Shown: positions 10,998 through 11,963 of the stretch, in pieces
How positions within the stretch are numbered: position 1 is the stretch's first letter
How the letters are laid out: every line of letters begins with the position of its first letter
Origin: Agathobaculum sp. Marseille-P7918
GTDB taxonomy: Bacteria > Bacillota > Clostridia > Oscillospirales > Butyricicoccaceae
Assembly (NCBI RefSeq): GCF_900625105.1
Contig: NZ_UYYD01000002.1
Span: 186,001-250,000, forward strand
Reading direction: 5' to 3'
DNA length: 64,000 bases
The notes under the pieces: generated by a model
Databases searched by the model: none
Told to the model about the DNA's origin: nothing
The model's input: only the letters and a program-made list of their open reading frames with translations
Made by a program: the position numbers and the translations under genes

Positions 10998-11026
10998 TTG
11001 ACAAAATCCGCAATCGTTGGTATACT
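10998..11026 (+). promoter_or_regulatory. Sigma-A promoter of the tRNA operon
   Basis: TTGACA and TATACT are separated by exactly 17 bases, a near-consensus promoter. Transcription would start around 11033, about 15 bases before the first tRNA. It is the only clear promoter before the five tRNA genes. Confidence 0.88.
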
Positions 11027-11047
11027 ATTTAAGCGTCAGAAAAACCC

Positions 11048-11121
11048 GCGGGTGTAGTTCAATGGTAGAATGTCAGCCTTCCAAGCTGAACACGTGGGTT
11101 CGATTCCCATCACCCGCTCCA
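11048..11121 (+). tRNA. tRNA-Gly (TCC)
   Basis: The 74-base cloverleaf has acceptor stem GCGGGTG/CACCCGC and anticodon arm TCAGC-CTTCCAA-GCTGA with anticodon TCC. The T arm is GTGGG-TTCGATT-CCCAT and CCA is encoded. It is the first gene of the tRNA operon. Confidence 0.97.
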
Positions 11122-11153
11122 TACTTTTAGGCACGGGTTGCCGGAATTGATAT

Positions 11154-11230
11154 GCGCCAGTAGCTCAGCCGGATAGAGCAACTGCCTTCTAAGCAGTAGG
11201 CCGGGGGTTCGAATCCCTCCTGGCGTGCCA
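11154..11230 (+). tRNA. tRNA-Arg (TCT)
   Basis: The 77-base cloverleaf has acceptor stem GCGCCAG/CTGGCGT (one G-T pair) and anticodon arm ACTGC-CTTCTAA-GCAGT with anticodon TCT. CCA is encoded. The last 21 bases are repeated exactly 116 bases downstream, at the end of the structured insert that follows this gene. Confidence 0.97.
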
Positions 11231-11346
11231 AGATTTTTTCGCAGGCATGGCTAGGGATTCGAAAGGCGGCTCTTACAAACAATCCTGTGGATTGTTTGAA
11301 CCGCCGTGGCTTTTCCGCAGAAAAGCGAATCCCTCCTGGCGTGCCA
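11231..11346 (+). repeat. tRNA-tail-duplicating structured element, copy A
   Basis: This 116-bp insert directly follows tRNA-Arg and ends (11326-11346) with a perfect 21-bp copy of that tRNA's own 3' end, including CCA. Its core shares two exact blocks with copy B: GGATTCGAAAGGCGGCTCTT (11255-11274) and a 34-base block at 11299-11332. Between them lies a 24-base hairpin (CAAACAATCC-TGT-GGATTGTTTG) whose sequence differs completely from copy B. Predicted stems are GGATTCG/CGAATCC, GGCGG/CCGCC and GCTTTTC-CGCA-GAAAAGC. No protein is encoded; short open frames here are not real genes. Confidence 0.85.
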
Positions 11347-11371
11347 ACTTTCCGCTGGCGAAATAGAATAT

Positions 11372-11449
11372 GGTGGGTATAGCTCAGTTGGTTAGAGCAT
11401 CGGATTGTGGTTCCGAGGGTCGAGGGTTCGAGTCCCTTTACCCACCCCA
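11372..11449 (+). tRNA. tRNA-His (GTG)
   Basis: The acceptor stem is GTGGGTA/TACCCAC, preceded by the extra G-1 typical of tRNA-His facing discriminator C. The anticodon arm TCGGA-TTGTGGT-TCCGA has anticodon GTG. CCA is encoded. No structured insert follows this gene. Confidence 0.97.
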
Positions 11450-11454
11450 TATAA

Positions 11455-11497
11455 ACCCTATGACGCGCTGCCTATCGCAGCGCGTTATGCTTAGGGT
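11455..11497 (+). other. Long hairpin between tRNA-His and tRNA-Gln
   Basis: TGACGCGCTGC (11461-11471) pairs with GCAGCGCGTTA (11477-11487) over a 5-base loop, and ACCCTA/TAGGGT extends the base of the stem. There is no T tract after it, so it is more likely a processing or stability element in the tRNA precursor than a terminator. Confidence 0.6.
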
Positions 11498-11525
11498 ACG
11501 GTCTGTCGTTTGATTCAACGGATAC

Positions 11526-11600
11526 AGGGGCGTCGCCAAGCGGTAAGGCATCGGCCTTTGACGCCGACATTCGCTGGTTCGAATCCAGCCGTCCCTGCCA
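11526..11600 (+). tRNA. tRNA-Gln (TTG)
   Basis: The 75-base cloverleaf has acceptor stem AGGGGCG/CGTCCCT (one G-T pair), discriminator G and encoded CCA. The anticodon arm TCGGC-CTTTGAC-GCCGA has anticodon TTG. Its last 21 bases are repeated exactly 103 bases downstream. Confidence 0.97.
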
Positions 11601-11703
11601 TTTTTTCCATTGGATTCGAAAGGCGGCTCTTGGCAAGATGCCGGCGGCATGTTGCAACCGCCGTGGCTTTTCCGCAGAAAAGCGAATCCAGCCGTCCCTG
11701 CCA
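11601..11703 (+). repeat. tRNA-tail-duplicating structured element, copy B
   Basis: This 103-bp insert directly follows tRNA-Gln and ends (11683-11703) with a perfect 21-bp copy of the tRNA-Gln 3' end. The conserved blocks are at 11612-11631 and 11656-11689, identical to copy A. The 24-base variable hairpin is GCAAGATGCC-GGC-GGCATGTTGC, pairing at 9 of 10 positions despite having no sequence similarity to the hairpin of copy A. Orientation relative to the tRNA is the same in both copies. Confidence 0.85.
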
Positions 11704-11726
11704 CTTTTCTTCGCACAATTTCATAT

Positions 11727-11802
11727 GACCCAGTAGCTCAGTCGGCAGAGCACCTGCCTTTTAAGCAGGGTGTCCGGGGTTCGAATCCCCGCTGGGTCAC
11801 CA
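11727..11802 (+). tRNA. tRNA-Lys (TTT)
   Basis: The 76-base cloverleaf has acceptor stem GACCCAG/CTGGGTC, discriminator A and encoded CCA. The anticodon arm CCTGC-CTTTTAA-GCAGG has anticodon TTT. It is the last gene of the tRNA operon and is followed at once by a terminator. Confidence 0.97.
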
Positions 11803-11841
11803 AAGCGAACCCGTCACGAAAGTGACGGGTTCGCTTTTTTT
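11803..11841 (+). terminator. Terminator of the tRNA operon
   Basis: AGCGAACCCGTCAC-GAAA-GTGACGGGTTCGCT is a 14-bp perfect stem with a GAAA tetraloop and a run of seven T. It starts right after the tRNA-Lys CCA. Confidence 0.95.
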
Positions 11842-11867
11842 ACTTCTCCATCCAAAGGAGGCGCCCT

Positions 11868-11963
11868 ATGCTGTACAACATCATCTGGTGGGCCAAAACC
11901 ATTTTTATCTGCGCCGTGCTGCTGTTTGTGGTCGGCGTAATCCACGGCTCCCGCAAACAGTGA
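11868..11963 (+). CDS. 31-residue single-helix membrane microprotein
   Basis: A short frame begins MLYNIIWWAKTIFICAVLL and ends VIHGSRKQ, giving one hydrophobic helix with a basic C-terminal tail. AAAGGAGG (11854-11861) lies six bases before the ATG, which is strong support for translation. It sits just after the tRNA terminator and 285 bases before the FtsX-like permease. I do not recognise a family. It may be an accessory subunit of a membrane complex or a stand-alone stress microprotein. Confidence 0.6.
   Translation: MLYNIIWWAKTIFICAVLLFVVGVIHGSRKQ

Follow-up and report, generated by a model that had tools for sequence, protein, structure and literature searches.

The 64,000-nt window analysed here, from Agathobaculum sp. 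Marseille-P7918, contains a tRNA-Arg(tct) gene and a tRNA-Gln(ttg) gene that are each followed by a short insert, of 116 and 103 bp respectively (Table 1). The earlier note had claimed that each insert ends in a perfect 21-bp copy of the tail of its host tRNA, and this was confirmed, with the exact copies running from C56 to A76. It had also stated that the inserts share long identical blocks and code for nothing. Pairwise alignment gave 98 shared columns at 80% identity, and a lack of coding capacity is likewise supported, as is the presence of many copies. A third copy in the same genome lies behind tRNA-Ser(tga). Between tRNA-His and tRNA-Gln, at 11460-11488 of the window, there is a hairpin (GACGCGCTGC...GCAGCGCGT) that is also seen in 13 genomes of the genus.

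Table 1. Parts of the inserts behind tRNA-Arg and tRNA-Gln, in window coordinates.
Feature	Position	Strand	Remarks
tRNA-Arg(tct), intact	11154-11230	+	ARAGORN; last 21 nt (11210-11230) are the copied tail
Insert 1, spacer	11231-11243	+	absent from the empty sites of relatives
Insert 1, left arm (antitail)	11244-11261	+	antisense of the tRNA-Arg tail; outer part decayed, AGGGATTCG exact; 5' strand of P1
Insert 1, constant core (64 nt)	11262-11325	+	holds P2, P2a and P3
Insert 1, P2	11265-11269 with 11301-11305	+	core helix
Insert 1, P2a	11276-11285 with 11289-11298	+	core helix; variable, palindromic
Insert 1, P3	11310-11315 with 11320-11325	+	core helix
Insert 1, right arm	11326-11346	+	exact 21-nt copy of the tRNA-Arg tail (C56-A76), identical to 11210-11230; its start is the 3' strand of P1
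tRNA-Gln(ttg), intact	11526-11600	+	ARAGORN; tail at 11580-11600
Insert 2, spacer	11601-11610	+	between tRNA-Gln and the left arm
Insert 2, left arm (antitail)	11611-11618	+	TGGATTCG, complementary to CGAATCCA in the Gln tail
Insert 2, constant core (64 nt)	11619-11682	+	core of the Gln insert
Insert 2, right arm	11683-11703	+	exact 21-nt copy of the tRNA-Gln tail, identical to 11580-11600

Across the family the unit is ordered as a spacer or terminator, sometimes with genes, followed by an antitail, a 64-nt core and a tail. The earlier note had overlooked the antisense arm and the constant folded core, as well as the tandem arrays and the gene-bearing stretches that such units end. At the Arg insert the left arm GGGATTCG (11254-11261) belongs to a nearly full-length, decayed antitail (11244-11261), whose complementarity extends in decayed form to the far end of the tail and which pairs with the start of its own tail copy, as does TGGATTCG at the Gln insert. 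Behind tRNA-Pro in L044 there is a longer exact antitail, GTGACTGGATTCG, with a tail beginning CGAATCCAGTCAC, whilst behind tRNA-Tyr in L026 the antitail, again longer and exact, is GGAGAAGGTGGATTCG and the tail begins CGAATCCACCTTCTCC, the right arm being broken after CGAATCC.

Identity between the tRNA and the distal copy was 0% at positions 51-55, 100% at C56, 0.80-1.00 up to A76 and 0.29-0.58 beyond, as measured in 59 copies that were aligned without offset and had a tail match of at least 15/21, hence chosen for resemblance. The borders at C56 and A76 are sharp and therefore the tail identity is not due to chance. A same-strand tRNA lies within 700 bp upstream of 87 of the 124 distinct copies. 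Among these 87 the tail match is 21/21 in 35, at least 20 in 44 and at least 17 in 57; with random tails as a control, 2% reach at least 20/21 and about 1% compare with the 21/21 class. The proposed specificity for tRNA tails is supported, in that good tails follow the local tRNA, and so is the proposal that the tRNA gene stays intact. Hits away from tRNAs and constant tails, which the earlier note had set against its own reading, are not the rule, yet 21 of the 87 copies match the local tail at only 10-14 of 21 positions. The 37 copies without a tRNA within 700 bp comprise copies at contig edges, an element behind tmRNA with an exact tail (L062), copies with a distant tRNA and some that are unexplained; in L018, L088 and L133 the tRNA is found 1-2.3 kb upstream and its tail is matched exactly.

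A covariance model gave 59 matches in 40 fetched regions, and 51 of these have a tRNA gene on the same strand no more than 500 bp upstream. The 59 matches overlap the 124 copies (some genomes are shared) and are not an independent test. The remaining 8 comprise 3 within 165 bp of a contig end, 3 after a tail copy without a whole tRNA (twice in L287, once in L290), 1 weak match (L291) and 1 that is unexplained (L230). Tail matches of at least 17 were found for Phe, Tyr, Arg, Gln, Ser, Pro, Lys, Val, Ala and Asp tRNAs. The tRNA-Leu tails match at 17 and 20 of 21 positions (L292), and for Met, Asn and Trp there is an exact tail at a distance, at one locus each. In total, the host tRNAs represent 14 amino acids, plus tmRNA. 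This is a real, widespread and tRNA-specific family.

The left arm also follows the local tRNA. In 113 of the 124 copies, taken without hand selection, Watson-Crick pairing of the left arm with its own tail and with the tails of other copies was 0.89 vs 0.67 at position 57, 0.92 vs 0.42 at 59, 0.72 vs 0.30 at 63, 0.65 vs 0.30 at 64 and 0.67 vs 0.45 at 65. At 66-68 the own tail was slightly better (0.38-0.45 vs 0.28-0.34), and at the near-constant positions 56, 58 and 60-62 it was no better than a swapped one.

Further observations were made at individual loci. In L292 (3449-3680 and 5969-6199), tRNA-Leu(gag) occurs twice at a distance of 2.5 kb; behind each gene lies a divergent element, and between the two a 365-aa membrane-type ORF. 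Other insert types, with the local tail and a different interior, occur at L018:387-579, behind tRNA-Val(cac) in L080 and L291 and behind tRNA-Tyr in L094; judged by eye, the insert in L018 has a left part that is antisense to the tRNA-Met anticodon arm. Upstream of elements (L065:807, L287:5808, L076, L040, L041, L053 and L290), copies of the tail are fused to TCTT or to a longer, incomplete tRNA-Pro; these are probably attachment sites of other integrated DNA; counts of such tail echoes come from loci selected for the element and are not a rate. Spacers behind terminal tRNAs (e.g. L031, L065, L136) have a recurrent stretch like TTGGTATGGGTATTTG between a terminator-like hairpin and the antitail. 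Lastly, tandem 23-bp tail-like repeats (CTTGAGTCCCCGCCGGGTCACCA) stand right after the element tail on the minus strand of L110, at about 116-220 of that strand.

Antitail, core and tail are predicted to fold into a three-way-junction hairpin, with 12 pairs in P1 (antitail with tail), 5 in P2, 10 in P2a and 6 in P3. The alignment used (A2) holds 73 of 79 script-selected copies, L008, L023, L037, the second L061 copy, L087 and L094 having been excluded by hand; several of these have a displaced or altered left arm and therefore their exclusion favours P1 in the structure test. With that bias, 91.6% of cells were paired, compared with 79.2% in shuffled and 37-49% in slid controls, and the covariation score was 0.345 against 0.125 in the shuffles, which retain the relatedness among copies. 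Two of the five structure measures were barely above shuffles; pairs changed on both sides numbered 17 vs 15.6 (56 of 500 shuffles as high) and further pair types 60 vs 56.3 (52 of 500 as high). By eye, the arms of P2 and P3 vary between genera with pairing preserved. A nested hairpin (CCCGTAGGCCGACAACC...GGTTG, or GAGGCCGTAGCCCTC...) was seen at recurring places, namely in P3 of L213 and L214 and between P1 and P2 in L215, L008 and L023. We also weighed a hammerhead-like three-way junction and discarded it on visual inspection.

A core pattern matched 15 of 60 genomes, the window's own included, and 108 stretches in a one-genome-per-species collection, with Oscillospiraceae, Clostridia, Agathobaculum, Butyricicoccus and Flavonifractor among the matches listed. 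The covariance model, with stricter filters applied to the genome counts for relatives, order and phylum, was positive in 30 of 99 relatives and, within the order, in 55 of 394 genomes (own included) and 30 of 169 genera. In a draw of 398 genomes from the phylum the single positive was the window's own genome, the other 397, with a few element-free genomes of the same order among them, giving no match to the model. Both the model (R1) and the search pattern are based on the core, and therefore divergent cores are missed. Three exact patterns gave 1, 0 and 0 matches in a viral contig collection.

A comparison of strains for empty sites had been proposed, and relatives do have such sites, both at Arg and at Gln: across 13 genomes of the genus, the gap between Arg and His and that between Gln and Lys are either short or filled with the element, the copy at the Arg site of G004 being decayed. 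What follows the distal tail is similar to the sequence flanking an unoccupied site, and therefore the inserted part consists of spacer, antitail, core and tail. In a local tree of about 1.3 kb, in which several branches are long and G009 is based on 188 bases, G000 is filled at Gln and the surrounding G006, G023 and G015 are empty, so that the Gln copy of G000 would most simply be a recent gain. Moreover, the core is at least 95% identical in 34 pairs whose two copies follow tRNAs for different amino acids, and one Pro copy has the same core as two Tyr copies (64/64) with different arms. Part of this high core sharing may reflect closeness to a common consensus. In G003, where the Arg site is empty, the core of the Gln copy shows 98% identity with the cores that G000, G006 and G023 have at Arg, a likeness that may stem from gene conversion between neighbouring ancestral copies. 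Patchy occupancy suggests that the element moves; no excision, circular form or within-species polymorphism was seen.

Units occur in tandem in L065, L101, L123, L094, L214, L225 and L229. Moreover, ORF-bearing stretches of 0.9-3.4 kb terminate in the element, lying either between two copies (L035, L061 and L127, of which L061 has poor tails and L127 no tRNA) or downstream of a tRNA or of a tail copy (L018, L088 and L133). Pfam searches with nine cargo ORFs (from L018, L035, L043, L061, L088 and L133) identified LytTR, DUF7010 and RNA_pol_A_CTD, the other six having no family.

We also searched for an enzyme that might move the element. The Y1 transposase PF01797 does not track it, being found in 10 of the 30 genomes with the element and 29 of the 69 without it; G008, G028, G064, G076 and G054 gave no match. 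Reverse transcriptase (RVT_1, PF00078), searched for in 16 genomes, was not found in G008, G016, G002, G064 and G054 and was present in others, e.g. G000, G022, G028 and G076. A search for tyrosine recombinases (PF00589) in 15 genomes, all element-bearing, gave no candidate that tracks the element. Two PF00589 hits were found in G064 (6 copies, 99% complete), one a Xer-like recombinase of the housekeeping kind and the other an integrase that appears truncated, and two each in G121 (10 copies, 83% complete) and G169 (4 copies). A single recombinase family was common to all seven compared genomes. It is present in 87 of the 99 relatives (73 of the 75 good ones) with or without elements, and therefore this shared recombinase is the housekeeping Xer-like one. 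A home-made integrase profile built from G000 integrases gave only 7 ORFs of at least 100 aa in loci numbered lower than L164 and a single ORF among the 20 from L274 to L293, and no autonomous form was recognised.

Several known systems resemble the element in part. Like an integron attC site it is an imperfect palindrome that can fold as single-stranded DNA, has inverted outer boxes, can end a gene-bearing unit and forms tandem arrays. Unlike in attC, the outer boxes are tRNA tails, the anchor is any of many tRNAs and not attI, most units are seen without a gene and the core sequence is well conserved. The consensus core boxes of attC are GTTRRRY and RYYYAAC; neither occurs in the two window inserts, and both occur together in 1 of 73 copies. 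No integron integrase was found among the PF00589 hits of G064, whose Xer-like protein scored 95.6 against the integron integrase model TIGR02249 (cut-off 265). By boxes and integrase the element is not a member of the integrons, and it is attC-like in shape. The properties of attC as a folded single-strand recombination site are in part given in PMC2727003 and PMC3053210.

Like REP/RAYT sequences and MITEs, the copies are short, non-coding, dispersed hairpins without a gene of their own; unlike these, they are nearly confined to the 3' ends of tRNA and tmRNA genes, their arms copy the local tRNA and the Y1 transposase does not track them. The exact tail duplication and the intact tRNA are shared with islands that target tRNAs through a tyrosine integrase, from which the element differs in its size of about 100 bp, in having no integrase in the unit and in serving many tRNAs with a single core. 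The known mobile elements at tRNA genes each come with a single fixed tail, matching a single tRNA. The rtT repeats of the E. coli tyrT operon, which are tied to that one tRNA operon and form their own Rfam family, are likewise units 3' of a tRNA gene that contain its 3' end. Unlike rtT, the element follows tRNAs of 14 amino-acid types and includes both an antisense arm and a constant core. Moreover, Rfam returned only tRNAs across the window at the gathering threshold; with E-values up to 5, the stretch 11000-11900 gave no rtT, and the other 10 matches there were under the gathering scores of their families. An element of the tyrT operon is mentioned in PMC8250186, and the palindrome behind Methanopyrus tRNAs that PMC5217627 describes is unlike the present element. 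Among the matches listed from the open PMC literature, none describes such an element in its title or the start of its abstract.

The inserts could be functional RNAs within the tRNA transcript, as rtT would be, with the tail copy as a decoy or processing signal. Covarying helices, the position 3' of tRNAs, the CCA-ended tail, the tRNA tail that rtT repeats also hold and a stable RNA fold of the Arg insert (z of -4.5; only -1.5 for Gln) would all agree with this. RNA-level structure should, however, tolerate G-U more than A-C on one strand, whereas inner P1, P2, P2a and P3 of the 73 copies have 29 G-U and 23 A-C cells (the outer four P1 pairs, counted apart, have 27 and 26), compared with 129 and 6 in the acceptor and T stems of 144 tRNA genes, a control biased towards G-U because ARAGORN accepts G-U and not A-C. 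The near-equality therefore suggests DNA folding or copying between the arms, and this symmetry points to folded DNA rather than RNA. As single-stranded DNA, the Arg insert has fold z-scores of -6.1 (+) and -5.2 (-) and the Gln insert -2.7 (+) and -1.1 (-). Many copies also lie behind a terminator-like hairpin and occupancy is patchy, both of which count against a role in the transcript, and we consider a functional RNA quite improbable. The description of the inserts as a tiny non-autonomous mobile element or RNA module thus stands as to tail-specific insertion, with its empty counterparts, and not as to the RNA module, for which a G-U excess is lacking. Remnant attachment sites of ordinary tRNA-targeting islands or prophages, with the tail copies as attR and the core as the end of a deleted integrase element, would carry the tail duplication that is the classical mark of integration at a tRNA, and other tail copies nearby, in L040, L041, L053, L065 and L076, match the tRNA over a longer stretch or are joined to TCTT. 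This origin is nevertheless improbable, given one core with many different tails, an antisense arm, a size of about 100 bp in many genomes and, at the sensitivity of the search, no match to the Gln insert in 50,697 phage or 72,556 plasmid records.

Alternatively, host-driven template switching and unequal recombination at tRNA tails might have produced the copies with no dedicated mobile element. A nascent strand would fold back on the tail, copy the core of an existing hairpin through CGAATCC / GGATTCG microhomology and return to the tail, and arrays would grow and shrink by recombination between tails. Such a route requires no enzyme and is consistent with an antitail and a tail that are both local, with near-perfect P2a and P3 palindromes that have few wobble or mismatch cells, and with the tandem arrays. 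In 13 of 52 copies the sequences that follow CCA on the two sides resemble each other, exceeding the 95th percentile of swapped controls, which also speaks for this route; in the other 39 they do not, which counts against it. Moreover, it would leave unexplained why many families of the order retain a 64-nt core with loops and an unvarying arrangement of P2 and P3, and why the 397 other genomes of the phylum draw lack it. We regard template switching as rather unlikely.

The reading we prefer, tentatively and at somewhat less than an even chance, is that of small non-coding mobile modules of folded DNA that settle directly 3' of tRNA or tmRNA genes and whose arms are inverted copies of the local tail. 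The family looks like a mobile element of an undescribed type. Antitail and tail, starting from C56 and with the tail reaching A76, would close the three-way-junction hairpin around P2/P2a and P3 of the core, and the moving machinery would recognise this folded single strand as the integron integrase does attC. The tRNA tail would serve as the anchor site, with C56 as the joint, and units could carry cargo. Conservative recombination into another tRNA would give a chimeric tail, and simple integration therefore does not explain exact local arms; these might conceivably be rebuilt or adjusted with the new tRNA as the source, through templated copying across the hairpin. A more far-reaching version, which we regard as unlikely, is a tRNA-anchored, integron-like cassette system in Oscillospirales, with custom boxes made of tRNA or tmRNA tails, tandem gene capture and arms rewritten whenever a new tRNA is reached, by some enzyme or through copying templated by the hairpin.

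One core behind tRNAs for 14 amino acids and tmRNA, with both arms copied from the local tail, is unlike elements with a fixed tail. If the element moves, some mechanism must rewrite its ends at each new site, and such rewriting, if true, would represent a novel mode of target choice and repair by DNA. It would also give gut bacteria a natural route for gathering genes behind their tRNAs.
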